Source of the DNA: a bacterium
GTDB taxonomy: Bacteria > Zhuqueibacterota > Zhuqueibacteria > Residuimicrobiales > Oceaniaggregativiventaceae
Length of the DNA: 64,000 bases
Assembly (NCBI GenBank): GCA_029565675.1
Contig: JAKQNP010000028.1
Span: 1-64,000, forward strand
Direction: 5' to 3'
The position numbers were made by a program, and so were the translations under genes. Positions 22,366 through 41,691 of the stretch are shown piece by piece. Every line of letters starts with the position of its first letter. Within the stretch, counting starts at the first letter, position 1. The notes under the pieces were generated by a model that was given only the letters and a program-made list of their open reading frames with translations, searched no databases and had not been told where the DNA came from.

Positions 22366-22420
22366 AACTCTAGGCAGACCACTGAGGAAAGTTCTTCCCC
22401 GGTTGAGAGGCAAACAGTGA

Positions 22421-22453: not shown

Positions 22454-22621
22454 ACTCGTTTCCGGCCAGACGCCGGGGATGCAGCCTTCCAGCCCTGCCG
22501 TCACAGCCGCCAAGAACTGTGATGGCTGATGGTATCGGTTGATGCTCTTTCCTGGCCTAGCGGCACAAATCCTATAACCGCCTGTTTCCCCGTTGGTTTT
22601 CTTTTTGCGCATTGGAATTTT

Positions 22622-22735
22622 CGGGTCGGACCAAAAACTATAACTGTAAAACTTGTTGTTAGCCCTAAAAAATGTTCAAAAATCGCCCTTAGCGGGCATT
22701 TTTTGTCCTTAAAAAAGGTTTTTAAGCATCGGTTT
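22622..22735 (+). repeat. Element B, copy 2
   Basis: Shares CGGGTCGGACCAAA and the 38-nt core (22667-22704) with copy 1 at 2304-2416. The stem arms differ reciprocally from copy 1: here AATGTTC...GGGCATT, there AATGCCC...GAACATT. The T-run after the stem would be terminator-like for the + strand. Confidence 0.6.
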
Positions 22736-22839
22736 GAACGGATGGGGATCCGGGAGTGAGGATTGAGCTCGCGCGGTTTGGCTGCCGCGCACGGCACAAG
22801 AACACCACTTGCGCCAGTGCATCAGCACCTTCTGGGGTA

Positions 22840-23412: not shown

Positions 23413-23433
23413 TTTCACTCCGCAATAACAAAT

Positions 23434-23858
23434 CAACCACAAAGACGCAAAGGAAAAAACAAAACTGATTTTTGTTTTTTCTTTTCAATTCTTTCTCTCT
23501 TCTTTGCGTCTTGGCGTCCTTGCGGTTAATCTTTCACCGCAAAGACGCAAAGGAGAAAAGCAAATCTCAAATATCACCGCAAAGGCACAAAGACGCAAAG
23601 GAGAAAACAAAACTGATTTTTGTTTTTTCCTTTCAATTCTTTCTCTCTTCTTTGCGTCTTGGCGTCCTTGCGGTTAATCTTTCACCGCAAAGGCGCAAAG
23701 GAGAAAAACAAATCTCAAATATCACCGCAAAGGCGCAAAGACGCAAAGGAAATAACAAAACTGATTTTTTGATTTTTCCTTTCAATTCTTTCTCTCTTCT
23801 TTGCGTCTTGGCGTCCTTGCGGTTAAGCTTTCACCGCAAAGACGCAAGGAGAAAAATG
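23434..23858. repeat. Element D, tandem array of about 149-bp units
   Basis: Three units; the marker TTGCGTCTTGGCGTCCTTGC ends near 23521, 23669 and 23819, giving periods of 148 and 150. Each unit contains the inverted pair ACCGCAAAGACGCAAAGG and CTTTGCGTCTTGGCGTCCTT around an AT-rich centre with CTGATTTTTG. The units are very similar, so the array is recent or still being homogenised. It lies between the GNAT and ABC-F genes, both on the minus strand. It is not a CRISPR: units are contiguous and lack unique spacers. Confidence 0.8.
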
Positions 23859-23921
23859 AACCACAAAAATTAATTAACCGCAAAGTCCACAGAAAACAAA
23901 CCCCGATTTGACCCCGGACAA

Positions 23922-25433: not shown

Positions 25434-25500
25434 AAACGGTCCCTCAACAATAGCTGTTTCATTCGATCCACATCGCTGGACAGAAATTCAGACCGACCCG

Positions 25501-25680
25501 GGGTTGGCCGGTCAGGAAAATCTCAAGCCCGCTTAAAAGTTGTAGGGCGACCACGCTGGTCGCCCTGCACGAAAACCATCTCTCGTAACCATGGTTGGCC
25601 GGCCAGAAAGACTCGAACCTGGACATTTTCGCAGGGCCACCACGCTGGTCGCCCTACAAGAAAACCAACTCTCTTCAATG
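25501..25680. repeat. Element F: two ~90-bp units each with a strong hairpin
   Basis: Both units start GGTTGGCCGG(T/C)CAG and contain a near-perfect hairpin, AGGGCGACCA-CGC-TGGTCGCCCT at 25542-25568 and GGGCCACCA-CGC-TGGTCGCCCT at 25631-25657, followed by AAGAAAACCA(T/A)CTCTC. They lie after the stop of the Tat-type lyase gene (minus strand) and before the ABC-F start, and could end or insulate transcription. The TTCGA-containing segment resembles a tRNA T-arm but no full tRNA folds. Confidence 0.7.
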
Positions 25681-25708
25681 GCAGCCGACGCGAATCGTCG
25701 GCATTCAA

Positions 25709-27736
25709 TTATACCACTTCGTACTCCGGCACCGCGCCTCGATCAAAGATTTTCACCTCGGCGCTGCGGCCCTGGCGGCTGATGCGGATGCGCCAATAAT
25801 CGCCCTTCTTTTCGATGTTGATCTCGGGTATCTTTTCATCACTTCGCAACGGACAGCCGGCCATCAGCAGCAAAGCTGATTTTGCTTTCTTTTTTGTGCC
25901 GATCTCGACAAACGGGTAAACGCCCTCTCCGACCGGGATGGGCAGAGTTTGAAGCTCGACCTGCAAATTTTCGCTGCCGGCGACCATGCCGGCAAACCTC
26001 GCCAGCGGCCGCTGAATGACGAATCGACGGCCGTCGATTTTGGCGCCACCCTCACTGTCCTGATTTTCGATGTGCCAACGCGCGCTGAACAAGGACCGAT
26101 CGTGCTTTTTGATCAATTTGTCCACAACCACTACCGCCGGCAAATCGAGCAGCACGATGACGGAACGTGTGACCGACTCGACGTCCGGATTGACCAGTGC
26201 ATAGGCCTGGGTTGCATCGCTGGCCCAGTAATGGAAAGTGCCCTGATCGTCCGTTCGCAGAATTTTCGCCTCGGCTTTGGATGGATTGGTCCCTTCCATT
26301 CCATCATGATATTGATGGCCCTGGCCGTCGATCAACACGCAGTTGTGCGCCGGCGAAGTGCGCAGCATCCAGGCCGGATGTTGATGATCATAAGGCGGAT
26401 GTTTCACATCATTGAGCAGCACCTCGCTGTAGGCTTTAAGCAGCACGGAATTGCGGTCCGCGTTTTCGTGGTTGCTGGGTTTGCCGCTGCGCATCGCCAC
26501 CACCAGGTCGTCTTTTTCAAAGCCAGTGCGGCTGATCACCCAGTCGAGATCGAGGTGGTGCAGCTGCCGTTGCGCTTTTGGCGGCTCGGGATTGACCGTG
26601 TTGTCGTACCAGATCAGAGAAAAGTGGTTGTGGCTGCGGGCAAATTTCTCCGCAACATATTGCGACAAACCATCCCGCGAGCGCGAAGCGATCCAGAACC
26701 CGATCCCGGAGTCGAAACTGGTGCCGCTGTCGCCGAAATTGACACAATAGGGATCGTGACCCTCGTGCGGCATCTGCAGCGCGAGCATAAAACGCATCAT
26801 GCCGGCATAATTGGCATCATCGAAAAGCTCGGCCAGTTTTTTGCGCTTCAGAACCTCGACACACAAGGCCATATGGCTGGCGGTATAGCTCCAATAGCCC
26901 GATCCCTCGTCATAACTGCCGTCGGGGAAGAAGAGCTTGACAAATTGCTTATAGCTGTGGGTGACCATCTCGAGCCATCGAGCGGTGCGGTCGTCTTTGC
27001 CGAGCAGAGCGGCGGTGCCGACCGCCAATGCGCCGACAGGTACCATTTTGAGGTTGGTGCGGTCGAGGATGATCGGCCATCGCCGCATGTCGCGCACGGT
27101 AAAAAAGCTGCTCTCCGGGTCATACCCCCAACCGACCACCCGGTCCGGATACCGCATGCCGTACAGCGCGTTGTAGCATGGCTCGCACCCCTTGTCAGCC
27201 ATCTGGCGCACCATCTCTTCCCTCTCATCCTTGCTGAGCAGATCGCCGAGCCAGTCGTAAGCCAGACTCATGGCGATGAGCGAACCGGGAGCGCGTTGCA
27301 GACCGATAATGTCTTTGCCCGCTTCCATGTGATAATCCCATTTCCTGAACTGCAGCAGTTTTTGCACGGCCATATGGGCCAGTTCACCGCGTTCCGGTTC
27401 CTCGGTTAGCAAATAGACAAATGCCTCGCGTTCGAGTATTTGATAGGCACGCGCGATATGATGGATATGGTTGTTGAGTTGGAGCTCCTGCAGCAAAAAT
27501 TTGCGGTCAGCAGCGATATCAGCGGCGAGCACTTCCGCCCAATACTCTTTAAACATCGGCAACTCGGTGCGTTTGCGCAGCAGCGGCACCTCCTTGCTGG
27601 TAAAAAACAGATTCAGCGGAAAAGCAGAAGCGGAATCAGAGCATGCGCTGCTGCCCAGTTGACCCAACAACGGCAATGCTCCCATGGCCAGGACACTGCG
27701 GCGGATAAAATCCCGCCGATCGATGGTGCGGTTCAT
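25709..27736 (-). CDS. Heparinase II/III-like polysaccharide lyase with twin-arginine signal
   Basis: 675 aa. The N-terminus has a Tat motif (RRDFIRRSVLAMGALPLLG, from residue 7) and a possible lipobox SSAC at about 29-32, so it is exported folded and may be membrane-anchored. Residues about 60-380 are an alpha-helical toroid (e.g. FFPDGSYDEGSGYWSYTASH), and the C-terminal half is a beta-sandwich with MRSGKPSNHENADRNS and TSPAHNCVLIDG, the place where this family carries its catalytic-region His/Asn motif. It cleaves uronic-acid-containing polysaccharides by beta-elimination if active. ATG 27736 has GGAGTGGGT upstream. It is divergent from two paralogues at 27963 and 30368. The substrate is not identifiable. 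Confidence 0.85.
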   Translation of the reverse strand: MNRTIDRRDFIRRSVLAMGALPLLGQLGSSACSDSASAFPLNLFFTSKEVPLLRKRTELPMFKEYWAEVLAADIAADRKFLLQELQLNNHIHHIARAYQILEREAFVYLLTEEPERGELAHMAVQKLLQFRKWDYHMEAGKDIIGLQRAPGSLIAMSLAYDWLGDLLSKDEREEMVRQMADKGCEPCYNALYGMRYPDRVVGWGYDPESSFFTVRDMRRWPIILDRTNLKMVPVGALAVGTAALLGKDDRTARWLEMVTHSYKQFVKLFFPDGSYDEGSGYWSYTASHMALCVEVLKRKKLAELFDDANYAGMMRFMLALQMPHEGHDPYCVNFGDSGTSFDSGIGFWIASRSRDGLSQYVAEKFARSHNHFSLIWYDNTVNPEPPKAQRQLHHLDLDWVISRTGFEKDDLVVAMRSGKPSNHENADRNSVLLKAYSEVLLNDVKHPPYDHQHPAWMLRTSPAHNCVLIDGQGHQYHDGMEGTNPSKAEAKILRTDDQGTFHYWASDATQAYALVNPDVESVTRSVIVLLDLPAVVVVDKLIKKHDRSLFSARWHIENQDSEGGAKIDGRRFVIQRPLARFAGMVAGSENLQVELQTLPIPVGEGVYPFVEIGTKKKAKSALLLMAGCPLRSDEKIPEINIEKKGDYWRIRISRQGRSAEVKIFDRGAVPEYEVV

Positions 27737-27889
27737 ACCCACTCCTTTCATGAATGCGGATCTATTTTCAATTCTCCTGAACTTGCGCATCCGGAGACCG
27801 TAAATTCTATTGTGTGTTGCTCCCTTTTCAGATTATAAACAAGATGGACTTCAAAGTCAAGATTTGCTTTGGCTGACGGCCATTTGTGC

Positions 27890-27918
27890 TTGTGTTCTCC
27901 TGCCGGATTGACTATATT
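27890..27918 (+). promoter_or_regulatory. Candidate promoter for the tandem lyases
   Basis: TTGTGT at 27890-27895 and TATATT at 27913-27918 with a 17-base spacer. The predicted transcription start falls on the palindrome at 27921-27941. Confidence 0.4.
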
Positions 27919-27920
27919 TA

Positions 27921-27941
27921 AACTCTGGCAAAACCAGAGTT
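27921..27941 (+). promoter_or_regulatory. Perfect palindrome/hairpin with T-run in the lyase leader
   Basis: AACTCTGG-CAAAA-CCAGAGTT, then GTTTTTT, then the ribosome site GGAGG and ATG 27963. It looks like an intrinsic terminator yet sits inside the leader of the gene, with no upstream + strand gene to terminate. It may be an attenuator, a 5'-stabilising stem, or a repressor operator overlapping the start of transcription. Confidence 0.6.
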
Positions 27942-27962
27942 GTTTTTTATGGAGGTTTTACC

Positions 27963-30347
27963 ATGCGCCGACCCGCGTGGATTCTTGTGCTCATTCTGAT
28001 TCATCTCTTGCCCGGCACTGCCAAACCGCAAAAAGAACCGCTGATCACCCGTTATTCCGAACTCTATCACATCGGCGAGCAGTGGTTTTGCCCTCTTTGC
28101 GACCAACCGGTCGACAACAGCGACCGGTCAGGCATCGATCCGGCGCTCTTTCTGTCCGAATGGCACGACACCTTCCTGGACAGCGCTTATTTTTCCTCAA
28201 AGATCAACCACATCAGCGATGACGAGCTGTTGCGCTCTTTGCGCTTGCCGCCGGCGACAACCGCGCTGCTCGCCAACACTCCGTCAAATGAAGCCGGCCC
28301 TTGGCTGAAGCGCCACTTTTCCCGCCGGCCCGATAACCGCCGTCTCTATGAATACGATGCCCGCCAGAACACCCCGTTTGTAACCATCGAAGAATTTCTG
28401 CAGGCTGTGCAAGGCGATTCCAGCCGCCGCCAGGCAATCATCGCGGCGGCGCGCACCGTTGCCGACCCTGACAGCGGCTTTATGATCGGCGGTTTGCGCT
28501 TTTCCAATCAAGTCGACTTAAACGCCGACTGGCCGACTGGCTCGGAATTCGGTCTTCATTACTGCCGATTTTTCACCGACCTGCTCAGCGGCTATCTGGT
28601 GACCAGCGATTCCCATTTCGGCCAGAGTTTTGAAAATCTGTTCAACCAGTGGTATGCACAACGCAATTCGGTGCAACAAAAAGAACGCGGCCCGAACATC
28701 AAATCACGCCATGTCATCTGGTATGAACTCGGCCTGGGCAATCGCCTGCCCCGCTTGATCGATTCCTATCGCGTCTACCGCAGCCGCCTGACTCCCGAAA
28801 CCCATATGCGCCTGCTCAAAACCTTTCTCGGTTCCGGCCGCTGGCTCTACGAATGCTTGCACCGCACCCCCTTTCATCCCTACAACTGGCAGGTGCAGAC
28901 AGCCATGACGCTTGCCTATCTGGCGGTGCTCTTTCCGGAATTCACCGAATCCGACGCCTGGTTGCAGGAAAGCCGGCGCAACATGGCCCTCCATTTCGAG
29001 CGCGACATCCTGGCAGACGGCGGTTATGTCGAGCGCACCGGCAGTTACACGCGTTATGCCTTTGACATGTTTTATCGCTACATGCGCCTGTTCCATCTGT
29101 TTCACAACGACACCGAGTTCTTTCGCCGTGGCTTGCCGCAGCTCGAAAAAATGATGGAATTCACCGCTCTGACCACGGCACCCACCGGCGTCAATTGTCC
29201 GTTCAACGACTCGCGGCGCGGCACGGATCTGGCCGAACTGCTGGCCGAAATGGGGCTCTTTTTCAATCGTCCCGATTTTATCGCCGCCGCCGCGCCGGCC
29301 CTTGACTCCACACAGATTCAGGCGCTGCGGATAAAACCCCAAAATCCGGTTGCAACCTCCACCCTGTTCCCGGATTCAAAATTTGCCGTCATGCGCGACA
29401 GTTGGCATCCAAACGCCTGTTTCATGCTCATCAATTATGGACCGTTTGCCAACCACGGTCATTATGACATTTTGGATTTCGAAGCGTTCGCCAATGGAGT
29501 GCCGATTGCCGTCGACGCCGGCATCGGGTCACAGGGATACAGCGATCCGCGCCATGTCGAGTGGTACAAGCACTCGCGCAGTCACAACATGGTGACCATC
29601 GATGATGCCGCCTGCGCCAAGCGCGGAATCAGCGGCCGCGATGTGGTTTGGTATGCCGGTGAGCACATCGACTATTTTGGCGCCTCCCATGACGGCTATC
29701 TCGCCTATCAGAACGCCGTCTGCCATCGCCGCATTGCTTTTGTGCACAGCGACTATTGGCTGATCCTCGATCAGGTCAACACCGCTACCCCGGATAAAAT
29801 CCTGGACTGTAATTTCCACACACCGCTGTCCATGCGCAAGAGAGCCGACGGCTTTATCTCTGTCGACCGGCCCGGCGCGGCGATTCTGCTGCCCAAAGCC
29901 GATGCCGAACAAATTGAACTCCTGCAGCAAAGCGGACCGGCAGACCTCAACGCTATCGAAGCGGTTGGCCATCGCGATATCGATTGGCTGATCTTGCGCC
30001 GCCTCTCACAGGCCGACTCCAGCCGCGATCGCTTTGCCGTGCTCATCTATCCGCTCAAGGCCGACACCACCGCCGCCGTGCCTTTGTTCGAGCAGGTGCC
30101 GGAACAGGATCCTGCGGTTTTGGCTTATAGGGTCAAAACACCGACTGGCACAGACCTGCTGCTCTTTTCCGACGGCCGGCCGCGCAGCTTCAGCTGCGGC
30201 ATCGAAGGCGATTTTCATTTTGCCTGGTTGCGGATGACCGATGACCGGCCACAAGCTCTTGCAGTCGTCGGGGCGACCCACATCAACTGGCCCGGCATCT
30301 GGCAACAGGCCTGGCCGGTCCGTAATGATTTTGAAACCGTTTTTTAA
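27963..30347 (+). CDS. Secreted heparinase II/III-like lyase A (tandem paralogue 1)
   Basis: 794 aa. Signal peptide about 1-20. The mature N-terminus has GEQWFCPLCDQPVDN with a CxxC pair. A helical domain of about 350 residues follows, including RTPFHPYNWQVQTAM and DGGYVERTGSYTRYAF (heparinase/alginate-lyase toroid), then the beta-sandwich with NYGPFANHGHYDILDFEAF and SRSHNMVTID, the family's active-site region (His/Tyr). It should act in the periplasm or outside on an acidic glycan. GGAGG lies seven bases before ATG. The next gene, 20 bases on, is a close paralogue, so the two are co-transcribed. Confidence 0.9.
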   Translation: MRRPAWILVLILIHLLPGTAKPQKEPLITRYSELYHIGEQWFCPLCDQPVDNSDRSGIDPALFLSEWHDTFLDSAYFSSKINHISDDELLRSLRLPPATTALLANTPSNEAGPWLKRHFSRRPDNRRLYEYDARQNTPFVTIEEFLQAVQGDSSRRQAIIAAARTVADPDSGFMIGGLRFSNQVDLNADWPTGSEFGLHYCRFFTDLLSGYLVTSDSHFGQSFENLFNQWYAQRNSVQQKERGPNIKSRHVIWYELGLGNRLPRLIDSYRVYRSRLTPETHMRLLKTFLGSGRWLYECLHRTPFHPYNWQVQTAMTLAYLAVLFPEFTESDAWLQESRRNMALHFERDILADGGYVERTGSYTRYAFDMFYRYMRLFHLFHNDTEFFRRGLPQLEKMMEFTALTTAPTGVNCPFNDSRRGTDLAELLAEMGLFFNRPDFIAAAAPALDSTQIQALRIKPQNPVATSTLFPDSKFAVMRDSWHPNACFMLINYGPFANHGHYDILDFEAFANGVPIAVDAGIGSQGYSDPRHVEWYKHSRSHNMVTIDDAACAKRGISGRDVVWYAGEHIDYFGASHDGYLAYQNAVCHRRIAFVHSDYWLILDQVNTATPDKILDCNFHTPLSMRKRADGFISVDRPGAAILLPKADAEQIELLQQSGPADLNAIEAVGHRDIDWLILRRLSQADSSRDRFAVLIYPLKADTTAAVPLFEQVPEQDPAVLAYRVKTPTGTDLLLFSDGRPRSFSCGIEGDFHFAWLRMTDDRPQALAVVGATHINWPGIWQQAWPVRNDFETVF

Positions 30348-30367
30348 TCCAAACAAAAGGAATGGCC

Positions 30368-32749
30368 ATGCGACGATCAGTTGTTGTGTTTATCACGCTT
30401 TTATCTCTGTTGGCGCTGATTTCCTGCAGCAAAAAAGAAACCGGCCCGGAAATCAGCCTCTATTCCGATATCTATCAGGTCGGAGAGCAATGGTTCTGCC
30501 CTCTGTGCAACCAGCCGGTGGAAAACGGCGATCGTTCCAAAATCGATCCCAACCTCTACTTGTCCGAATGGCACGACATCTTTCTGGATGCCGACACTTT
30601 CGATAAAAAAATCAATCACATTTCGGATCGCGAGCTGGTCAGTTCCTTTGCCACGGCGCTGAGCGGCCAAACCCTTGGCGACTCGCTGAAGGCGCTGCTG
30701 GACTATTTTACCCGGCGGTCCGATCTGCCGCGCTATTACTTTTACGATGCAGCCGCACAGATACCCTTTATTCCACTGGCGCAGTTTATCGAGCAAGTGA
30801 ACGGTGACTCGCTGCGCCGGGCAAAACTCATCGCCGACGCCCAGGCAGTTGCGCACCCGGACAGCGGTTATACCATCGGCGGCCATTATTTCGGTTGGAC
30901 CATCGATTTCATGCACCCCTGGCAAGGAATTTCGGATTACAGCGTGCACAGTCTGCACTTTTTGCAACCGCTGGTGGCTGCCTATCACATCACCGGAGAT
31001 GAATTCTATCTGCACAGCTTTGAGGATATTTTTAATCAGTGGTATGAACAGAAAGACCGGATCGTCCATCAATGGGGGCCGATGGATAAAAAGGTCTACG
31101 GCGTGATCTGGTATGAACTGGGTCTGGATGGCCGTATCTGCCGGCATATCGATGCATTGCGCGCTTTCGGCGACCGCCTGCAACCCGAGACACGCGTGCG
31201 CCTGTTGAAGATGATCCTCGGCTCGGCGCGCTGGCTGCAAGAATGCCTATCGCGCACTCCCTTTCACCCCTACAATTGGCAGGTGCACACCGCCACTTCT
31301 TTGACCTATGCGGGCTTGGCCTTTCTCGAATTTACCGAAGCGCCCATTTGGCTTACAACTGCAAAAGAAAACATGGAAAAACACTTTGTCAACGATATCC
31401 TGGGCGACGGCGGCCACAACGAGCGCAGCGGCGGTTATACCCAGTACACCTTTGGCATGCTGCACCGCTATCTGCTCATCCGCCAATATTTCGCCGGCGA
31501 CCAGGATTCTTATGACCGCTGGATGCCGCGGCTGGAAAAGTTGATGGAGTTTACCGCCCTCAATCTGGCGCCCACTGGCGTCAATTGCCCGTTTAACGAC
31601 TGTGGCCGCGGTACTTCCCTGGCAAACCTGCTGCTCGGCATGGGAGAGTTGTTCAACCGGGGCGACTTTGTCGGCGCCGCATCGCCGGCGCTGGATCCGG
31701 CAAAGGTTGCTGCCGCGCAAGTGCGGCCGCGCACCCCCGAGACGAAGTCCAAACTCTTTCCCGACTCCAAATATGCGGTCATGCGCACCGGCTGGAACCC
31801 GGAAAGCTATTTCATGATGATCAATTACGGACCGTTCGCCAACCACGCGCACTATGATATCCTCGATTTTGAAATCTTTGCCAACGGCATCCCCCTGGCT
31901 GTCGATGCCGGCATCGGCGTCAAGGGCTACAGCGATCCCATCCACGTCTCCTGGTATAAAGGCTCAGAATCGCACAACATGCTGACCGTGGACGAAGCCA
32001 TCTGCGTCAAACGCGATATCGAAGGCGAAGGAGTGGTCTGGGCGGCGCAGGACTTTTGCGACTATTTTCGCGCCTCCCATAGAGGCTATCAGCGCTACCA
32101 CAGCGCCGTTTGCCGGCGGGATTTTGCTTTTGTGCGCGACGCGTACTGGTTGATCATTGATCAGGTCAGCACGCCGAAAAGCGGGCAAAAGCTCGATTGG
32201 CACCTGCATTCGCCCCTGACGCTGAAACAAGACGGCGCGGCATTTGTGTCTGAACAACGCCCCGGCGCGCTCTTTTTATTGACCCCGGAAGGCGCCCAAA
32301 CGTGCCGGATTCTCCACCGCCAGGCCCCGGCGGATCTGCGCGGCATCGAGGGTGAACCGGACAACCGCGAGATCGACTGGTTGACCTTGCGCAAGCAGTC
32401 GAAAGCCGACTCAACCCAGGACCGTTTTGCTGTGCTGATCTTTCCGCTGGCTGCTTCGGCCGGTCCAGATCCGGAGGACCAGGTCGATTTCCAGGAACTG
32501 CAATCGCCTGACCCGTCGGTGCGGATGTTCCAGGTCACCACTGCTGATTTCCAGGATCTGTTGATCTTCAGCGACGGCAAAATACGCCGCTTTGCGCCAA
32601 ACATCGAAAGCGATTTCCTGTTCGCCTGGCTTCGCTCGGTCGCAGATGCACCTGCTCAGGTCAGCGCCGTCGGAATGACCCAATTGAAATGGGGTGAACA
32701 GCTCGATATCCGGTTGGCCGGCCGCAGCGATTTCGAACAAAAATTCTAG
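30368..32749 (+). CDS. Heparinase II/III-like lipoprotein lyase B (tandem paralogue 2)
   Basis: 793 aa. The signal peptide ends in LLALISC (lipobox, Cys20), so unlike its neighbour it is likely anchored to a membrane. After this the sequence runs parallel to lyase A: GEQWFCPLCNQPVEN, SEWHDIFLDA, RTPFHPYNWQVHTA, NYGPFANHAHYDILDFEIF (HAHYD where A has HGHYD) and SESHNMLTVD. ATG 30368 has AAAAGGA seven bases upstream; the in-frame ATG at 30362 is too close to it. The shared layout shows a tandem duplication followed by divergence in localisation. Possibly one enzyme is secreted and the other surface- or periplasm-bound on the same substrate. Confidence 0.9.
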   Translation: MRRSVVVFITLLSLLALISCSKKETGPEISLYSDIYQVGEQWFCPLCNQPVENGDRSKIDPNLYLSEWHDIFLDADTFDKKINHISDRELVSSFATALSGQTLGDSLKALLDYFTRRSDLPRYYFYDAAAQIPFIPLAQFIEQVNGDSLRRAKLIADAQAVAHPDSGYTIGGHYFGWTIDFMHPWQGISDYSVHSLHFLQPLVAAYHITGDEFYLHSFEDIFNQWYEQKDRIVHQWGPMDKKVYGVIWYELGLDGRICRHIDALRAFGDRLQPETRVRLLKMILGSARWLQECLSRTPFHPYNWQVHTATSLTYAGLAFLEFTEAPIWLTTAKENMEKHFVNDILGDGGHNERSGGYTQYTFGMLHRYLLIRQYFAGDQDSYDRWMPRLEKLMEFTALNLAPTGVNCPFNDCGRGTSLANLLLGMGELFNRGDFVGAASPALDPAKVAAAQVRPRTPETKSKLFPDSKYAVMRTGWNPESYFMMINYGPFANHAHYDILDFEIFANGIPLAVDAGIGVKGYSDPIHVSWYKGSESHNMLTVDEAICVKRDIEGEGVVWAAQDFCDYFRASHRGYQRYHSAVCRRDFAFVRDAYWLIIDQVSTPKSGQKLDWHLHSPLTLKQDGAAFVSEQRPGALFLLTPEGAQTCRILHRQAPADLRGIEGEPDNREIDWLTLRKQSKADSTQDRFAVLIFPLAASAGPDPEDQVDFQELQSPDPSVRMFQVTTADFQDLLIFSDGKIRRFAPNIESDFLFAWLRSVADAPAQVSAVGMTQLKWGEQLDIRLAGRSDFEQKF

Positions 32750-32899
32750 CAGCTGCCACAAGGAACAAACCGGCAACAGATTGAAACTGCAATTCGCAGA
32801 CCGGAACAGAATCGGCTGTAGCTCAGTCGCTCAATATTCTGAGCAAAAACGAGACAAAAAGCGGCATCACTCATGGGTTTGAACAGAGGAGAATAAAAA

Positions 32900-33889
32900 A
32901 TGCAAGTTGTCCGACTGGGACAAACCGATCTGAAGGTTTCGCGTATCGGGCTGGGCTGCTGGGCGTTTTCCGGTGTCGACACCTGGGGTGAGCAGGATCG
33001 ATCTGATGCGATCCGAACCGTGCACGCCGCCCTGGATGCAGGGATCAATTTCTTCGATACAGCCGAAGCGTATGGAGATGGTGAATCGGAACAGGTGCTT
33101 GGGCAAGCCCTGGCCGGCCGGCGGCACGAAGCGATCATCGCTTCCAAGGTGCGATTCGCCAACCTCAGGCGCGCGGATCTCATCGCCGCCTGCGAGCGCA
33201 GTTTGCGCAATCTGCGCACAGATGTCATCGATCTCTATCAGGTCCATTGGCCCAATCGCGAAGTCGATATCGCCGAAACTGGTGCAGCGCTCCTGGAACT
33301 GCAAAAACAGGGCAAAATCCGTTTCATCGGTGTTTCCAATTTTGGCATGCAGGACCTGCAGGAATTCATCGAGCACTGCCCCTGCGCAACCGATCAAGTT
33401 CCCTACAATTTGCTCTGGCGGGCGATCGAGTACCGCATATTGCCCGCCTGCCTCGAGCACAACATCGGTGTATTGGCCTACAGCCCGTTGGCGCAGGGAT
33501 TGTTGACGGGCAAGTTTTTTTCTGCGGAAGATGTGCCTGAAGAGCGTCGAAGGACGAGGTTTTTTTCACCTGACCGGCCGCTGGCCAGACATGGGGATCA
33601 AGGATGCGAGAAAGAGGTCTTTGCGGCGATCGATCGACTTCGCCGGATCTGTGACGAAATCGGTCAACCCATGGCAAAAACAGCGTTGGCCTGGCTCTTG
33701 TATCAACCGGGAGTCACCGCGGTGTTGGCCGGCGCCCGCAAACCCGAACAACTGCGGCTGAATGCCGACGCAGATGCGTTGCAGCTGGACAAAGAGCTTC
33801 TCGATCAAATGGATCGAGCCACGCAAGAGATCAAGATCACCATTGGTGACAACCCGGATATGTGGGAATCCGAATCGCGCTATCGATAA
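32900..33889 (+). CDS. Aldo/keto reductase
   Basis: 329 aa. The TIM-barrel family motifs are intact: Asp53 and Tyr58 in FFDTAEAYGD, Lys83 in ASKV, and His116 in YQVHWPN make the catalytic tetrad, and YSPLAQGLLTGKF and AGARKPEQL belong to the NADPH-binding part. It lacks a signal peptide, so it is cytoplasmic and NADP(H)-dependent. GAGGAG lies eight bases before ATG. It is the third + strand gene after the two lyases (150-base gap) and faces a sodium/solute symporter gene. It may reduce an unsaturated or keto sugar released from lyase products; that is inferred from context. Confidence 0.92.
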   Translation: MQVVRLGQTDLKVSRIGLGCWAFSGVDTWGEQDRSDAIRTVHAALDAGINFFDTAEAYGDGESEQVLGQALAGRRHEAIIASKVRFANLRRADLIAACERSLRNLRTDVIDLYQVHWPNREVDIAETGAALLELQKQGKIRFIGVSNFGMQDLQEFIEHCPCATDQVPYNLLWRAIEYRILPACLEHNIGVLAYSPLAQGLLTGKFFSAEDVPEERRRTRFFSPDRPLARHGDQGCEKEVFAAIDRLRRICDEIGQPMAKTALAWLLYQPGVTAVLAGARKPEQLRLNADADALQLDKELLDQMDRATQEIKITIGDNPDMWESESRYR

Positions 33890-33897
33890 TCCGCCAA

Positions 33898-33932
33898 GGG
33901 GCGATGGCTGCACAAGCGATCATCGCCCCTTT
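33898..33932. terminator. Bidirectional terminator between reductase and symporter
   Basis: GGGGCGAT (33898-33905) pairs with ATCGCCCC (33922-33929), followed by TTT. It lies between convergent genes and could end both transcripts. Confidence 0.7.
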
Positions 33933-33938
33933 ATGGGA

Positions 33939-35858
33939 TTAATTTTCGGATCCGCGCTTGGCCAATTCCTCTTGCATCGCCTTGACAAAAGTGCGTTCGC
34001 TGCGCCCGCCAAAGTAATACATCAGCCCCCCCAACAGGATCAACAAGGCCCCCATCGCCATGGTCATCTGCCGATCCTGAGCCGACATCGGCACCAGAGC
34101 GATGAGAAAAACCACCACCCCAATCAGCACGCAGATGATTCCGACAATCGGAAAGTTCGAGACCGGTTTGCTGCCCGCGCCGTACACTTCACGCGCCACA
34201 TCAATCGGTTTGTTGAGGCGTTCGAAAAAGCGTTCGACGATCATGCGATCCTGGTGATCTTCGCCGGCAAAGAGCCGGGAAAAAAGCGCAGAACCCAACG
34301 CGTAGGCGACAGCGCAAAGAATGATGAGCAGCAAGGTCATGCCCTGCGGCGCGATATTGCTCAGGGAATAGAAAACGAGAAAAACAGCGAGACCGATTGC
34401 CAGCGAGACGAAGCGGCTCAGCCAACTGTTGCGGCGATAGATTCTGCCAAGAGGTTCTGCCAGCAACAAACCACCCAATGAGGCGATGATCGAAGCATAG
34501 ACCTGCGGGCCGACGCTCCAACCGAGCAAAAATTTGGCGGCAATGCTGGCAAGCAGTCCATATGTGATGGCAGAAACAGCCGACCAGCGCGGCATGTGCT
34601 TGAACACCAGGCCAAACGCCATGGGAACCGAAACCGGGATGGAAAACAACGCACTGACGATGACCATGAGATTGAAAATTCCCATCCTGCTGTTGGCATA
34701 AATCAGCCCGGTGATGATGGTGACCACTCCAAGAAAAACCGTCGCGATTTTACCCACTTTGAGCAAGCGCTCATCGGACGCCCCCGGATTGATGAGCTTG
34801 CCATAAAGATCCTTGGAAATAATCGATGAATCGATATTGTAGGTCGCATCCAATGCGCTCATGGTCGCGGCGAACATGGCGGCAAGGAAAAAACCGATCA
34901 AACCGTTGGGAACGAGTTTGAGCACCATTCCCACATAGATCAGATCTTCCGGTACAACATCGCCCTGGAAAAAGGGCACAGCGGCGAGATTCGGCCAAAG
35001 CATGCGCGCGACCAACGGCGGAATACCGAACAGCAGCGGCACGGTCAGGAAAAGCAGACTGCAGGTCAAGCCGACGCGTTTGGCGTCGCGTTCGTCTTTA
35101 ACGCTGTAATAGCGCTGCGCCGCACCCCAGTTGGATACCATAAAATTGATGATTGTGACGGCGATGAGATAATGGATATCGTATTTCATGCCTTTATAGA
35201 CATGGTCAAACTTGAGCGAAGGGAGGTTGTCGATGAAATTGCCGAATCCACCGATCGCATGCAGGCTGATCGGCACCACCAAAACGGTAATCACCAAAAG
35301 GATGGTGAATTGCACCACATTGGTGATGGTCACCGCCCTGAGCCCGCCGAGCAACGTATAACTGAGGATCACCAGACCGGCAACGATGATAACGATTTCA
35401 ATCGGCATATTGATCGCCGAAGCGACGATTTTGGACACGGCGGTCAGGGCTATACCCCGGGTCAGCAATCCGGTAACGACGGTCACCAGAGCGACCAACT
35501 GCTGGGTGGTGACGTTGTAGCGCGTCTGCGTGTATTCGACCGGCGACAGCACCCGGGAGCGCCGCCAGCGGCCCGCTGTGAGGCGATGGCCAAAACCAAA
35601 AGCGATTGCCCAGGTGACGAAATAGAGCACTCCATACAAACCGGTATGGTAGACAAACCCGGAAGCCCCGGTAAAAGTCCAGGCGGAAAAATTGCTCATA
35701 TAGAGCGAAATGCCGGCCACCCACCACGGGATCATGTTGCCGCCGGCAAAATAATCCTTCGCACTTTTGAGAAATTTGCTGAAATAGACTCCCACACCCA
35801 GTATGAGCAGCACATAAAAAATCAGCACAGCATAGTCGATTGGCGCAACCGTGTTCAT
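33939..35858 (-). CDS. Sodium/solute symporter, SGLT-like (SSS family)
   Basis: 639 aa with about 14-15 hydrophobic helices and a C-terminal extension, the usual size for sugar-type SSS carriers. WWVAGISLYMSNFSAWTFTGASG near 45-67 is the conserved first-helices region, and SALDATYNIDSSIISKDLYGK near 345 is the family signature. It probably imports a mono- or oligosaccharide or uronate with sodium. The start at 35858 (MNTVAPIDYAV) has AGAGGAAA upstream. It follows the 36070 lyase on the same strand (211-base gap), a pairing that suggests uptake of that enzyme's products. Substrate unconfirmed. Confidence 0.9.
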   Translation of the reverse strand: MNTVAPIDYAVLIFYVLLILGVGVYFSKFLKSAKDYFAGGNMIPWWVAGISLYMSNFSAWTFTGASGFVYHTGLYGVLYFVTWAIAFGFGHRLTAGRWRRSRVLSPVEYTQTRYNVTTQQLVALVTVVTGLLTRGIALTAVSKIVASAINMPIEIVIIVAGLVILSYTLLGGLRAVTITNVVQFTILLVITVLVVPISLHAIGGFGNFIDNLPSLKFDHVYKGMKYDIHYLIAVTIINFMVSNWGAAQRYYSVKDERDAKRVGLTCSLLFLTVPLLFGIPPLVARMLWPNLAAVPFFQGDVVPEDLIYVGMVLKLVPNGLIGFFLAAMFAATMSALDATYNIDSSIISKDLYGKLINPGASDERLLKVGKIATVFLGVVTIITGLIYANSRMGIFNLMVIVSALFSIPVSVPMAFGLVFKHMPRWSAVSAITYGLLASIAAKFLLGWSVGPQVYASIIASLGGLLLAEPLGRIYRRNSWLSRFVSLAIGLAVFLVFYSLSNIAPQGMTLLLIILCAVAYALGSALFSRLFAGEDHQDRMIVERFFERLNKPIDVAREVYGAGSKPVSNFPIVGIICVLIGVVVFLIALVPMSAQDRQMTMAMGALLILLGGLMYYFGGRSERTFVKAMQEELAKRGSEN

Positions 35859-36069
35859 CTTCTCTATTTCCTCTCCAGTGTGTTGCGTGTTCTTTTTCTT
35901 GCGGCCGGCTGAACGTTGGTTCGCCTTCTTCGCCCCAGTCGGTCGAGTTTACATGCGCATTTTCAGTTCGAAGGATCCTCCAGCAAAACGATCGACAGCA
36001 GATCAAGACAAGGTTCTGGACAAAAACCACAGCCTTGCAAACAGGGTCTTTCGCGAAGGTGTTTGGGCA

Positions 36070-38496
36070 TCATTCTGGCCCGGCCTGCAACCACTTTTCA
36101 TATTCTATCCTGCCCATGCGGCTGCGCACCATCCCGATGCGGCCGTGCCAGGGTGTATCATTGCGGGCAATATGGGTGATGACCGGAGGTCTGTCATGCA
36201 AAGCACAGGCCAGCCAATCCTGGGTGCCGTCCAGCCAGGTGACCTGGATCTGCACTGGCCAGGAGTCGTCTGACTCATCGATATAATCGAGTTCGACGGT
36301 CAGCAAATTCGATAAGGTGCCAGTCGGTTCCCAGACCGCGACGAAAGTGGATGCGGGGCGATCCTCACTGCGCACGATCAGATAAGGCAATGTTCGGCCT
36401 TCCTGATCGATCTTGCGCTGTGCCGGTGCAGTGGCCAGATAGACAGAGCCGCGGTGCGGGCTGAGCAAATACAGGTGCAAAGAAGCCCCTGGATTCTCGG
36501 CCCAGTTCCAAACCGCGCGCAATCCCGATTGCATTTGAGCGAGGCGCACATTTTTCAGCTGGTTATAAGCTTCATCGCGGCCTTTCAATTCGCCAACCTC
36601 CCGCCACGACAAATCGGGGATCTGCAGATCGACGCTCTCTGCATGCGCAGACCAATCGTGTTTATCGCCGCCGCGGATACGAAAAATATCGACGGTATAA
36701 TCGCCTTCCGGCCTCTCGACGAGCAGCAACTGCCGGTTGTAGATTTGGGTAATCGGGCTGTAAGCCTCGTCGCTGCTCATTTCGATTGCATGCAAGAGGT
36801 GATCGCTGTAAAAAAGGTGGCATTCGCCTTCCGCCAGCCGCTGGTTCTGAGTATTGACCGTCACCGTATTGTGCGCGAGGCTGCGCATCATCCAGCGTGT
36901 GCGCAGTGGATGGTTGGCATAGACATAACCGAGATCTGACACCATTTGCCGGCCATGCGCAAAGAGGGTGAAATCGAGTTTATCCATATGATCATGGCCG
37001 CCATAGACACCGCCATAGTCTGCGGTGACCATGACCTCGGGCTCTTGTTGTTGTGAACGCAAAACAGCAAGGCCCAAATCGCCCGGATTGCTGCTGGTGC
37101 GTTCGAACAAGCGGCCGCTCTGGCGGAATCGATTCAACTGCTGTGGCGCCTGCGCCGGACGATTGAACAGCGAAAAGAGATCGCCTTTGCTCAAAGTCAG
37201 GTCGCCATACACTTCCGCGAGGTAGTGCAGAGCGTCCGCCGACTGAAACCAGGCGAATGCTGCATCGGCGAGCAGAGGTTGGGGTCGGTCATCGGTGTGC
37301 GAATCGTTGATCGGCGGCAAGGTACCGTCTGGATAGGTCAGAGTAAAAAGATTTTCATAAATCCGCTGCAGTCGGCTAAAGTCCTGCAGTCGAAACTGGT
37401 CAAAACGGCCGTCGTTGCCGCTATAGGAAGAAGGATCGCTGTAGCCGTACAGAGCATCGACTGCCTGATGGAATTCGCGCAGCGCCATCATGTGATAGCT
37501 CGGACTGCGCTCGCACCAACTGCCATCGTAAAAAAAATAACGCAAAAGGAAAGCGACCACTCCCGATTCGCGATTGAGCACCCATCTCATCACCTCAGGG
37601 TCCTGCAACAAACGGCCGCACACTGCCACGCCGGCATAGCGAAACGGCGTGTCATTGATGACCTGACTCTCCGGCGGGATGGCGGTGAGCAGATCGGCGG
37701 CGGTGCGAAAAACTCCCTGCAAAACCAGCTCACGGTCAGCTGGAGTCCAGAAGCTGCTGTTGCGGGTGGCATCATAAGCCTTGCCGCAGGCGACGATCAA
37801 CACCGCATCTTCATAATTCCAACCGGAGATTTTGCCCGCCAGCGGCCACGGGTGTCGTCGGTAGCGCTCCCAATCGTGCAAGGCATAGCCGGGATAGACC
37901 TGAGCCAGGCGGGTGAGAATCCTGCCAATTGCCCGGCCATGGATTTCCTTGCCGTCCAGCACATAGACCGCAGCCAGGGCATCGAGCCATTTGCCGATGT
38001 GCATCAGTTTTTCATAAGCGATCCGTTCGCGAAACTGATAGATCTTGCCGTCATTGGCCCGATGGACAGGCAAGAGCTGGCTGTTGCCGCGCGGATCAGG
38101 GACACTGATGGTGTGGTTGTCTGGATAGTTTTCAGCAGTGATGCGGGTGCTGCAAGTTTGGCAGAACAACACCTCGGGACTATCCGGCGACCACAGCCAA
38201 TTGTAAGAACTCCAACTTGCCTTGCAAACCGGACAATCCACAACCCGGGTGGGTGTATACTCTGGAATCCAGCCTTGCCACTGTTTGTCGTCAAAAGCGG
38301 CGGCTAGGTCGGCCTCACGGCGCAGTGAATCCGTTAAAGCCTGCGCCCACTTGTGCTGCTTGATATTGGCCCTGGCAATCTTTAGCCGCTCCTCAGGAAA
38401 CATAAAGCGCTTTTCATTGGCTGAAGAAACAGCGAAAGACAGACACAGCAAAAAAACCATCAGAATGATCGGCAAATAAGAGCGTTTGAAGTTCAT
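36070..38496 (-). CDS. Secreted heparinase II/III-like lyase C with zinc-ribbon motif
   Basis: 808 aa. Signal peptide about 1-25. VVDCPVCKASWSS and LFCQTCSTRI (about residues 72-105) give two CxxC pairs about 24 residues apart, a likely structural zinc ribbon in the mature N-terminus. A helical toroid follows and then a beta-sandwich with VYGGHDHMDKLDFTLFAHG and SLAHNTVTVN, the heparinase catalytic region. ATG 38496 has GGAGG six bases upstream; the longer reading upstream lacks a signal sequence. It precedes the symporter gene on the same strand and is divergent from lyase D, with element A2 between them. Substrate unknown; uronate-containing glycan expected. Confidence 0.9.
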   Translation of the reverse strand: MNFKRSYLPIILMVFLLCLSFAVSSANEKRFMFPEERLKIARANIKQHKWAQALTDSLRREADLAAAFDDKQWQGWIPEYTPTRVVDCPVCKASWSSYNWLWSPDSPEVLFCQTCSTRITAENYPDNHTISVPDPRGNSQLLPVHRANDGKIYQFRERIAYEKLMHIGKWLDALAAVYVLDGKEIHGRAIGRILTRLAQVYPGYALHDWERYRRHPWPLAGKISGWNYEDAVLIVACGKAYDATRNSSFWTPADRELVLQGVFRTAADLLTAIPPESQVINDTPFRYAGVAVCGRLLQDPEVMRWVLNRESGVVAFLLRYFFYDGSWCERSPSYHMMALREFHQAVDALYGYSDPSSYSGNDGRFDQFRLQDFSRLQRIYENLFTLTYPDGTLPPINDSHTDDRPQPLLADAAFAWFQSADALHYLAEVYGDLTLSKGDLFSLFNRPAQAPQQLNRFRQSGRLFERTSSNPGDLGLAVLRSQQQEPEVMVTADYGGVYGGHDHMDKLDFTLFAHGRQMVSDLGYVYANHPLRTRWMMRSLAHNTVTVNTQNQRLAEGECHLFYSDHLLHAIEMSSDEAYSPITQIYNRQLLLVERPEGDYTVDIFRIRGGDKHDWSAHAESVDLQIPDLSWREVGELKGRDEAYNQLKNVRLAQMQSGLRAVWNWAENPGASLHLYLLSPHRGSVYLATAPAQRKIDQEGRTLPYLIVRSEDRPASTFVAVWEPTGTLSNLLTVELDYIDESDDSWPVQIQVTWLDGTQDWLACALHDRPPVITHIARNDTPWHGRIGMVRSRMGRIEYEKWLQAGPE

Positions 38497-38702
38497 GACT
38501 TCCTCCAGATATCTCAGCGCTTGATCGGGACAAAACAAGAGCGATCCTGCTAGAGGGTGGGGGAATCGCTGGTTCTGTTGATACAGTATAGCAGAATCCT
38601 GCAATTTTCCAACAAAAAATCCACATTTGCCCCTATGCACAGATCCATTCATCGAAAGCAAGGTATTGGATCTTTCGGCAGAATTGTCTATCTTTTTTTA
38701 TA

Positions 38703-38842
38703 CCCAGATTCGGTGTTAACCGAATCAAAAAACATTCAATCTCTTGTTCTTTATGCGGTTGTGAAATGGGCACTTGTCACCCTCTGTGCATTGCTATCAG
38801 ATTGATTTTATATGAGATCCGGTGCTGCGCACCGGATCCGGG
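38703..38842 (+). repeat. Element A, copy 2 (MITE-like, 140 bp)
   Basis: CCCAGATTCGGTG ... CACCGGATCCGGG. The right-end hairpin GATCCGGTGC-TGC-GCACCGGATC is perfect in this copy. It is directly flanked by TTATA on both sides (38698-38702 and 38843-38847), a good candidate target-site duplication. It lies in the promoter region of two divergent lyase genes. Confidence 0.85.
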
Positions 38843-38883
38843 TTATAATCCTGAAATCGAAAGGCGGTCGTACAGGAGGCCAG

Positions 38884-41691
38884 ATGAAGAAGACTCTAAT
38901 TTTTCTGTGCCAGGTTGGCTTAATTTCTGCCGCAAGTGCCAGCGGTTTGGGCACTTGCCTCTACAGTGAAAAAGAAATCCAACAGGCCCGGCAGAACATC
39001 GAACAAATGCCCGCTGCACGGGCTGTCCAGGAGCGCCTGCTGTCGGATGTAAAACCGTGGCTGGCTCTGGATGACACCCGAATCAGCAGCGTCGCCGCAA
39101 GCGCGAAAAGCAGCGATCTCTTGTCACTGGCACAGGCTTACCTTTTGACCGCCGATCCAATCTACGCCCACAAGGCAGCGATTCTGCTCGACCGCTTTGC
39201 TGAACTCTATCTCAAAGACAATGAATCTCGGGTGGACAGCCATTTGCCGGGCAAAGAAAGAGATGCGAATTTTGGTTCACTTTCTGAACCCGGGCAGATC
39301 CGCGATTTGATCGAAGCCTTTTCCCATATCCTGCCGGCCCTGGCATCCATCGAATCTGCGCTTCCCGATGGGCATTCCGGTAAACAGCTCGAAACCCTTG
39401 TCCGCACCGATCTGCTGACAAAGATATCCATTGATTTGCTCGATGGCAGCATGCAAAGCCCGTGCGGTGAACACCTGCGCACCGCCCTGACGCTGGCTCT
39501 GCTGATCCAGGATCCCCATCAGCGCCAGGCCTTGATCGATTTAGCCCGGCGCGGGCTGCAGGAAATCCTGGAAAACCGGATCAGCTCTGATGGAATCGCG
39601 TGCGAATGGTCGCTGCAGCACAGCGGGCTTGGCGCTGAATCTCTGATCGCTTGCCAGACACTGTTGGCCAAATTGGGACAACCGGCATTCGAGAATCCCA
39701 AGTTGCTCGACCTGGTGCGCTTCCCGCAGCGCTTGCTGCTCATCGACCGTTTTCATCCGGCTATCGGCGATTTCGGTTCGCTGAATGCGAGCCGGGTACA
39801 ACTGCCGCTGTGGACACTGCGCGCAGCATTCGATGCCTTTGCAGACCCCCAGCTGGCAGCTGAATTGTGGACCCGACAAGCTGCCCACGAAGGCGCATTT
39901 GTCGATTTTAACGATTTGTTTTTAATCCCGCTGGACGGTTCGCGATTGCAGTCGCTCGCCGCTCAATCGCAAACAGCGCCAAGGAGCGCGGTGCTGGATG
40001 GCTATGGGGTCGGGATTCTGCGCGATCAGCATCAGTCAGCGCGGCTGGCGGCCACGCTCTATTACGGCCGGGCCGGCGATGAACACGGACACCATGACCG
40101 TCTGAACATCGAGCTGTTCGGGTGTGGAAAAAAATTGATGCCGGATTTCGGCTGTCCATCGCCGGACCGCCAGTCACCCGCTTCCGCTGCCTGGGAAAGA
40201 AATACGCTGAGCCACAACACCGTGATGGTCGATCAGCGAAGACAGACCAATCGGTTCGGCGGTCGTCTGGAGGCTTTTGCGGTTACTCCGACCGTACAGT
40301 GGATCAGCGCCAGCGCCCCGGCTGTCTATCCGGATACCGTCACCCATTACAAACGCCGCCTGGCGCTGATCGAGCCGCCTGACGGCCATCCCTTCTTCGT
40401 TGATCTTTTTTCGGTTGCCGGTGGGCAGACTCACGACTATTCTCTGCACGGTTTTGCCGGCAAGGCCAAATCGAACAAAATCTTGTGGGACAAACAACGA
40501 GGCGGCAGCCTGGCCGGCATTGAAGTCCCATATGGTACCCTCACCGACGACCCGGCGTTTAGAGGAAAAAACCCGCCGCCCATCGATGACTATCGCGGCG
40601 GCGGCACTGCATTTCTCACTGATGTCCGGCGAGGGTATCCAGAGGGCGACTGGTCGTTTCGCTGGAGCGCCGGCGATACCACACTGTCGGCGTTCGTGCC
40701 GTACAGCGATGAAATGCAGCCCTACTGGTGCAAAGGCAGGCCGCCTGACCGGCCCGGCAATCCTGCAGAAATCGATTTTCTCATCATCCGCCGCCAGACA
40801 GCCGCGCTGTCATCGACCAGCCTGTTTGCAACGGTGTTGCAGAGTGCGCTCAAGGAACCGGACATCACCGGGGTCAGCGAGCTGCCATACGCCGGCAATC
40901 GACCGCCCTTCTCGATCGCTCTTGAAATTCAGCGCCGTAACCGCGGCAAAATCGTCGTGCTGGCCAACGAGAACCTCAGCTCCTGGGTGCGCACTCGGGA
41001 CCATGCCTTTCGCGGTGCATTGGCGGTGCTTTTCTATGACCAACAGGGGCAAGTGGAGGCGGTGGATTTTATCAATCCGATGAATTTTATCGCTGACTAT
41101 ACCGCTCTGGAAGCGAGCGGAGCATTTGGCGGCCGAATTGCCGAGTGCGACTACAGCCGCCGAGTCTTGACAGTGATTCCGAACGATTCGCTGCTGCGCG
41201 GCAAGACAGCCGGAACCACCGCGATTGCGGGCAACGATTTCAACCAGTCAGCAGTGCAGATCGAAACTGGTGAGTGGCAAAACGGTAAGTTGCAGCTGCG
41301 CTTGTCGCCGAACAGCCTGTCTTGCGGCCGGCTGTTTCTGCCGCCGGATACCACCCGGCAGGGCTACACCACGAGCCGTTTGTGCCCGGAGTTCTACGAC
41401 AACCGCGGCAATCGGCTGCGGGGAATACGTTTGACCGACGATAAAATGGAACGCGAATGGTCGATCGACTGGATAGACGGCTACGGCAAGCTTTACTTTC
41501 AGCCGCCTGACCAGCCGTTGCCGCGATTCAGCGAGGGACCGCTGCGGATGTTCCATGTGGGTGCCGGTGATCGCCTGCAGATCGATTCCTGGGTGCGTCT
41601 GCAAAGGCAAACCGACGGCCGCTGGCAGGCTTTATCCAGCCTGAACCGCATGCGCGGGGTCTTTGGCGGTCAACCGATTCAGGTGGATTAA
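38884..41691 (+). CDS. Secreted heparinase II/III-like lyase D (large)
   Basis: 935 aa. Signal peptide about 1-19. Residues about 25-400 are a helical toroid (e.g. LYSEKEIQQARQNIEQ), then a beta-sandwich with GDEHGHHDRLNIELFG and TLSHNTVMVD, equivalent to the active-site motifs of lyases A-C. The C-terminal ~250 residues (with KLQLRLSPNSL) form an extra beta-rich region not present in the others. No CxxC ribbon. ATG 38884 has AGGAGG four bases upstream; starts further up run through element A2. It diverges from lyase C. Another chain-cleaving activity on the same polysaccharide is plausible. Confidence 0.87.
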   Translation: MKKTLIFLCQVGLISAASASGLGTCLYSEKEIQQARQNIEQMPAARAVQERLLSDVKPWLALDDTRISSVAASAKSSDLLSLAQAYLLTADPIYAHKAAILLDRFAELYLKDNESRVDSHLPGKERDANFGSLSEPGQIRDLIEAFSHILPALASIESALPDGHSGKQLETLVRTDLLTKISIDLLDGSMQSPCGEHLRTALTLALLIQDPHQRQALIDLARRGLQEILENRISSDGIACEWSLQHSGLGAESLIACQTLLAKLGQPAFENPKLLDLVRFPQRLLLIDRFHPAIGDFGSLNASRVQLPLWTLRAAFDAFADPQLAAELWTRQAAHEGAFVDFNDLFLIPLDGSRLQSLAAQSQTAPRSAVLDGYGVGILRDQHQSARLAATLYYGRAGDEHGHHDRLNIELFGCGKKLMPDFGCPSPDRQSPASAAWERNTLSHNTVMVDQRRQTNRFGGRLEAFAVTPTVQWISASAPAVYPDTVTHYKRRLALIEPPDGHPFFVDLFSVAGGQTHDYSLHGFAGKAKSNKILWDKQRGGSLAGIEVPYGTLTDDPAFRGKNPPPIDDYRGGGTAFLTDVRRGYPEGDWSFRWSAGDTTLSAFVPYSDEMQPYWCKGRPPDRPGNPAEIDFLIIRRQTAALSSTSLFATVLQSALKEPDITGVSELPYAGNRPPFSIALEIQRRNRGKIVVLANENLSSWVRTRDHAFRGALAVLFYDQQGQVEAVDFINPMNFIADYTALEASGAFGGRIAECDYSRRVLTVIPNDSLLRGKTAGTTAIAGNDFNQSAVQIETGEWQNGKLQLRLSPNSLSCGRLFLPPDTTRQGYTTSRLCPEFYDNRGNRLRGIRLTDDKMEREWSIDWIDGYGKLYFQPPDQPLPRFSEGPLRMFHVGAGDRLQIDSWVRLQRQTDGRWQALSSLNRMRGVFGGQPIQVD

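Follow-up and report, generated by a model that had tools for sequence, protein, structure and literature searches.

Do five heparinase-like proteins, a sodium:solute symporter and an aldo/keto reductase that share 16 kb of bacterial DNA work as one catabolic unit, and on which polysaccharide would they act? The locus lies at 25709-41691 of the window, by which we mean the whole 64,000-nucleotide stretch analysed. The genome carrying it (G000; 4.43 Mb, 95% complete) belongs to candidate division KSB1, as do the MAGs that are its close relatives. We favour, with somewhat better than even confidence, a family-specific catabolism of an unsulfated, non-alginate, uronic-acid-containing polysaccharide, in which lyases cut the polymer, the symporter (SSS) imports the product and the reductase (AKR) reduces it.

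Gene content and layout

Coordinates and Pfam searches agreed with the initial annotation on the presence of five heparinase-like proteins, an SSS symporter and an aldo/keto reductase (Table 1). Hepar_II_III_C scored above its cut-off in all five PL proteins, and Hepar_II_III_N additionally in PL_B and PL_C. Genome-wide, G000 had 13 Hepar_II_III_C matches, five of them within the 16-kb locus; such a concentration was reached in 0 of 200,000 random placements, so the clustering is not due to chance. The symporter exceeded both cut-offs (SSF, 150 vs 22.8 bits; TIGR00813, 187.8 vs 184 bits), and its closest solved relative was 5nv9, a putative sodium:solute symporter.

Table 1 Features of the locus, in window coordinates
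Feature	Position	Strand	Basis
PL_A, Tat-signal PL15/PL35-like heparinase-superfamily lyase (putative)	25709..27790	-	Pfam, conserved triad, model
Divergent intergenic region PL_A/PL_B	27791..27962		sigma-70-like promoter on -, hairpin on +
PL_B, Sec-exported PL12-like lyase (putative)	27963..30347	+	Pfam, profile, invariant N-W, Y, H
PL_C, lipoprotein (LISC) PL12-like lyase (putative)	30362..32749	+	Pfam, profile, N305-W306, Y359, H495
AKR, aldo/keto reductase	32900..33889	+	Pfam above cut-off; D53, Y58, K83, H116
SSS, sodium:solute symporter	33939..35858	-	SSF Pfam and TIGR00813 above cut-off
PL_D, Sec-exported PL17-like lyase (putative), zinc-ribbon-like N-terminus	36070..38496	-	Pfam, profile, N336, Y389, H556, Y579
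PL_E, Sec-exported divergent heparinase-fold protein (PL40/PL17-like)	38812..41691	+	Pfam, Foldseek, alignment

Judged from this layout, the transcription units would be PL_A alone, PL_B-PL_C-AKR (with 14 bp between PL_B and PL_C), PL_D-SSS, and PL_E. The start of PL_D is probably the ATG at 38496, which stands behind GGAGG, and not the TTG at 38661, up to which the frame stays open; PL_E likely starts at 38884. Between PL_A and PL_B, a region of which one block is conserved in the genus relative G001, a sigma-70-like promoter for PL_A (TTGACT-17-TATAAT, - strand, 27860..27832) matched at 11 of 12 positions. On the + strand a terminator-like hairpin with a T-run (27921-27941) directly precedes the PL_B ribosome-binding site and is possibly an attenuator; it had no Rfam match, and the Rfam scan of the whole window gave 0 matches. 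The tRNA scan of the window also found none, and there is therefore no hint of a tRNA-borne island.

The varied localisation proposed earlier (Tat, Sec, lipoprotein) was recovered by inspection: PL_A has a twin-arginine signal (RRDF at residue 25; RRxF in most orthologues), PL_C a lipobox, and PL_B, PL_D and PL_E Sec-like signals. The extra domains proposed with it were not found, as the search returned 0 additional Pfam domains; outside Pfam, PL_D has only a four-Cys N-terminus resembling a zinc ribbon, PL_B and PL_C share a CPLC motif, and the C-terminus of PL_E is unmodelled. The initial annotation had also described the locus as free of SusC/SusD, sulfatase and uronate-catabolic genes. This holds for the cluster itself, but uronate-catabolic genes are present elsewhere in G000, and a sulfatase adjoins the corresponding cluster of G003, a genome of the same family but another genus. 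A SusD-family search of G000, G001 and G003 gave 0 matches while a control genome was positive, so no SusC/SusD pair of the Bacteroidetes PUL type was found; the cluster also contains no outer-membrane importer.

Several other features of the window were recorded. A hybrid two-component regulator (11221-15309; Reg_prop, Y_Y_Y, HisKA, HATPase, response regulator and AraC-type HTH) is of the type controlling Bacteroidetes PULs and is separated from PL_A by 10 kb of unrelated genes. A second carbohydrate locus (50312-61959) has an apiosidase-like gene (with DUF5060), GHL10, a second SSS symporter and a GHL6/GH42M-like gene. The pyruvate kinase at 48636-49727 is only 363 aa long, with the barrel domain alone and the C-terminal domain absent. 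Several large secreted proteins (15756-22365 and 43521-45692) end in FlgD_ig or Por_Secre_tail domains (type IX-like sorting), and none of them is a lyase of the locus.

Catalytic residues and the nature of the substrate

Active-site residues of the superfamily are known for PL12 (N240/Y294/H424) and PL35 (N192/Y246/H401), for PL17 (N201 with a neighbouring His, Y258, H413), for PL15 alginate lyase (H311/R314/Y365/H531) and PL15 exoheparinase (N336/H337/Y390/H555; PMC12088678), and for PL40 ulvan lyase (N245-W246, Y305, H485; PMC12915356). PL_A to PL_D keep the Asn/Tyr/His machinery and PL_E does not, so that of the five lyases originally proposed, four are probable by their residues and one, PL_E, is doubtful.

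In PL_A, N246, Y299 and H441 were invariant across 17 orthologues. The predicted model (17 sequences; pLDDT 85.7) matched PL15 alginate lyase Atu3025 best (VIA Z 31.5 over 585 residues), and heparinase II (PL21), PL35, PL39, dermatan sulfate epimerase and PL17 at Z 27-29; the matches to PL15, PL21, PL35, PL39 and PL17 lyases extend over the full length (Z 25-31). PL_A has the same fold as Atu3025, PL35 GAGases and human dermatan sulfate epimerase over about 530-585 residues (Z 28-31.5), but with only 15-18% identity to them. Its Tyr and His are those of PL15 and PL35 and its Asn is that of PL35, whereas at the PL15 neutralisers His311/Arg314 the alignment places N246-L247 and M249, which match neither this His/Arg pair nor the Asn-His of PL15 exoheparinase. 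Profile matches to PL35 GAG lyases (E 5e-19, with the triad present) and PL21 heparinase II were significant. In the PL35 HxHxD metal site, the second His is Asn443 in PL_A, though it is His in most relatives.

PL_B and PL_C are tandem paralogues with 51% identity, and their closest profile matches were PL12 heparan lyases (E about 4e-33). They align across both domains of the heparan-sulfate lyase HepC (4MMH, 5JMD) and keep its Asn240, Tyr294 and His424; N305-W306, Y359 and H495 of PL_C were invariant in nine PL_B/C relatives. However, similarity to HepC is low (NCBIfam HepC score 55-66 bits vs a cut-off of 600-700), the N-terminus has the CPLC motif, and the neutralising pair is Asn-Trp, as in PL40 ulvan lyase, not the Asn-His of 4MMH.

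PL_D aligns over nearly its full length with PL17 alginate lyases (Alg17c 4NEI, AlgL17 9IRQ) and keeps Asn201, Tyr258, Tyr450 and the HxH motif. It differs from them in the zinc-ribbon-like N-terminus and in having Asp337 for His202, an Asp shared by all six sequences spanning that site. Its closest NCBIfam model was oligoalginate lyase, at 64.9 bits vs a cut-off of 1400; since this model is a strict equivalog, the low score shows only that PL_D is not a close orthologue.

PL_E keeps His427 and His468 but lacks the Asn and the Tyr: by a shallow alignment, the catalytic Tyr site reads HS in PL_E and AF in its sole orthologue, with no Tyr nearby. The best Foldseek matches were PL40 Uly1040 (9VTK), which shares its Asn-Trp pair with PL_B/C, and PL17 lyases. 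Because the alignment is shallow and the model poor (mean pLDDT 57.5), this fold match shows the superfamily fold only. Uly1040 requires Tyr305, which PL_E lacks, and ulvan is sulfated whereas G000 has no sulfatase. Going by its residues, PL_E may be an inactive, non-catalytic partner.

Could the locus be one for alginate, with PL15/PL17-like exolyases and endolyases making DEH, a ToaA-like symporter importing it and the AKR acting as DEH reductase? The best structural match of PL_A (Atu3025), the closest NCBIfam model of PL_D, and an operon of PL15, PL39, PL29 and SSF genes in Verruconatronum that is induced by alginate all point this way. But the alginate-lyase carboxylate-neutralising residues of the nearest family were absent from all four intact lyases (compared with PMC12088678, Table 4). 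The evidence against alginate lies in the missing His/Arg of PL_A and PL_D, as inferred from GAGase III, in which a His next to the Asn permits alginate cleavage (PMC12088678); in addition, the entry Alg17c H202L marks His202 as an active-site target, and PL_D is far under its family cut-off. We therefore consider an alginate locus unlikely, and an unsulfated, non-alginate uronan the most likely substrate.

Conservation of the linkage in relatives

In G003, one contig (C144) carries PL_D (51%)-abhydrolase-SSS (60%)-PL_B-PL_C-AKR (63%), with a sulfatase upstream. In G001, which is of the same genus as G000, one contig carries PL_A (75%)-PL_B (67%)-PL_C (71%), with PL_A and PL_B in the head-to-head arrangement of the window, and another carries PL_C (68%)-AKR (69%)-SSS (73%); both contigs break inside PL_C. 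The linked orthologues in these two genomes thus span 63-69% for AKR and 60-73% for SSS. SSS, PL_B, PL_C and AKR were together in all three genomes of the family (f1) having them, and PL_D was near SSS in G000 and G003. This conserved linkage bears out the earlier proposal that lyases, symporter and reductase are a unit. When unlinked homologues were looked for in relatives, those four genes had stayed together, whereas PL_A lay elsewhere in G003 and PL_E was confined to the genus (G000 and, at 47-51%, only G001).

The two exceptions would fit a composite, in which an old module of PL_A and SSS has recently gained PL_B/PL_C with AKR, PL_D and PL_E as separate neighbours, each with different glycans as targets; PL_B/C relatives that in other genomes stand alone or next to a LarA-type racemase would fit it too. 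Against this stand the four-gene linkage in the family, the position of PL_D near SSS in both genomes and the head-to-head PL_A and PL_B of G001, and we regard a composite as very improbable. PL_C groups with one of the G003 copies, which dates the duplication behind PL_B and PL_C to before, or close to, the divergence of G003 from G000/G001.

Relatives of PL_B/C at 39-44% were found by the named-genome scan in Opitutaceae, Ignavibacteria and Bacteroidota, and outside the family of the window none of them had SSS, AKR or other lyases adjoining. Their neighbours in Opitutaceae (four-carbon acid kinase, RuBisCO-like, GH127, alkaline ceramidase, amidohydrolase) vary between lineages and were discounted. 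Solitary relatives in KSB1, Ignavibacteria and Bacteroidota MAGs (L066, L053, L069, L076) are closely followed by a gene of the LarA type (lactate racemase family); those compared were at least 70% identical, hinting at a hydroxy-acid product needing epimerisation.

PL_A orthologues were close to single-copy and occurred in 27 of the 63 genomes of the class. Of 17 genomes compared, 6 had an SSS gene immediately next to PL_A and on its strand (gaps of 33-134 bp; expected 0.13, P about 2e-9); once near relatives were dropped, 4 of 14 did (P about 3e-6). Three of the six adjacent symporters (G022, G027, G032) were 55-56% identical to the SSS of the window, and the other three were closer (56-58%) to a symporter on contig C43 of G000. 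Together with the linkage in G001 and G003, this adjacency indicates that the lyase-plus-symporter link is real and ancient. The breadth of PL_A exceeds what is expected of a dietary enzyme and, like the lack of an outer-membrane importer in the cluster, would suit a role in recycling or reshaping the capsule or matrix of the cell itself, with salvage of the product. But no glycosyltransferase or polysaccharide export gene was among the scanned window proteins, and five paralogues with differing signals fit an external polymer better, which leaves this reading improbable.

A second locus with PL and SSS was present in each of the three genomes: on C242 of G003, with AKR (62% identical), PL_E-like, PL_D-like and SSS (41%) genes, and on C26 of G001 and C43 of G000, with heparinase-like, SSS and carbon-nitrogen hydrolase genes. 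The C43 locus (14000-33900; L150) further has a HemL-like aminotransferase, an amidohydrolase and a URO-D-like methyltransferase. Two of its flanking genes (DEAD helicase, T9SS-type protein) adjoin PL_A in G001 (81% and 64%). Some PL_A-SSS loci of the class add a methyltransferase-like URO-D gene, a glycyl-radical-activase-like gene, a HemL-like aminotransferase and an amidohydrolase, and the G000 orthologues of these are at C43 (56-66%). In L155 (6544-12625) and L156 the putative operon is SSS, PL_A, URO-D-like methyltransferase and glycyl-radical enzyme activase; no glycyl radical enzyme was recognised among its scanned neighbours. The methyltransferase of such operons in other families of the class is MtaA/CmuA-like. 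It is a long shot that the PL_A-SSS pair serves an uncharacterised class-wide pathway whose uronic polymer bears nitrogen and/or O-methyl groups; under this reading, the C43 flanking genes found next to PL_A in G001 would suggest that the window locus and C43 are parts of one system. Our literature search found no paper on a heparinase-SSS-methyltransferase locus.

Fate of the product and known systems

In the catabolism of a non-alginate uronan that we prefer, exported PL_A, PL_B, PL_C and PL_D would cut at uronate residues by beta-elimination, with Asn neutralising the carboxylate, His or Tyr as base and Tyr as acid, and would release 4,5-unsaturated oligo- or monosaccharides; PL_E would be a divergent, possibly non-catalytic partner. 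The small unsaturated product would then be imported with Na+ by SSS, the AKR would reduce 4-deoxy-5-keto-uronate or a related keto-sugar, and KDG kinase and KDPG aldolase encoded elsewhere would complete the pathway. In G000, Eda adjoins a KDG-kinase-like gene on contig C32, and one GH88, KduI and KduD are on contig C36.

The catalytic tetrad of the AKR is complete, and the nearer relatives of the protein are generic reductases of the stress and methylglyoxal types. The DEH reductases so far reported from bacteria belong to the SDR or beta-HAD class, and the AKR-type ones are eukaryotic (PMC8778563). Since G000 has KduI and KduD, the AKR is not needed for that step there. The draft genomes G001 and G003 have no GH88 and no KduI but keep the cassette, the AKR and KDPG aldolase, which speaks for small products and for the AKR serving as a reductase, fitting a substitute reductase where GH88/KduI are missing. 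Counted against our reading are the AKR class, the lack of a close homologue of known activity and of an outer-membrane importer, the PL_B/C relatives beyond the family without SSS/AKR, and the separate PL_A of G003.

Sulfatase-family matches within one KSB1 family numbered 0 in G000, 36 in G003 and 84 in G002, so the polymer is probably unsulfated, at least in G000. This also bears on a glycosaminoglycan of the heparosan, chondroitin, hyaluronan or heparan type, for which the PL12 affinity of PL_B/C and the PL35 and PL21 matches of PL_A would speak. However, G000 lacks sulfatase, the GH88 required for glycosaminoglycan disaccharides is missing from G001 and G003, both of which retain the core, and PL_B/C have the Asn-Trp of PL40; a glycosaminoglycan locus is thus decidedly unlikely.

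If our reading is true, the locus adds to the few uronan-degrading loci with a sodium symporter and without SusC/D and extends them to an uncultured phylum, KSB1. Its four lyases with intact machinery and unusual neutralisers (Asn-Trp, Asn-Asp, Asn-Leu) would be candidates for new specificities, and the recurring lyase-symporter pairing would help in tracing what the many unassigned heparinase-like proteins act on.

The initial annotation had proposed a candidate new polysaccharide-lyase system, but operons that combine lyases and an SSF symporter and lack SusC/D are already known (PMC13274419, PMC8286568). The operon pgaptmp_000046-60 of Verruconatronum alginivorum has PL15, PL39, two PL29 and an SSF 'ToaA-like' symporter and is alginate-induced (PMC13274419). 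Like our locus, it groups several exported lyases of the heparinase fold with an SSF symporter outside a SusC/D PUL, with later steps encoded elsewhere; unlike it, it responds to alginate and has no PL12- or PL17-like genes. Its DehR, an NADPH-dependent oxidoreductase, is encoded outside the operon, and the table of key proteins contains no AKR (PMC13274419). The 'scattered' alginate system of Vibrio has KdgMN porins, ToaABC symporters and PL15/PL17 oligoalginate lyases (PMC8286568). It shares with our locus the import of lyase products by sodium symport, PL15/PL17-type enzymes and the absence of TonB/SusD, but it has alginate-type active sites, a non-AKR DEH reductase (VsRed-1, beta-HAD) and no single compact cluster. 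With these lyase-SSF precedents the locus is not a new kind of system; its enzyme folds are known, and it is the combination of genes that is unusual.
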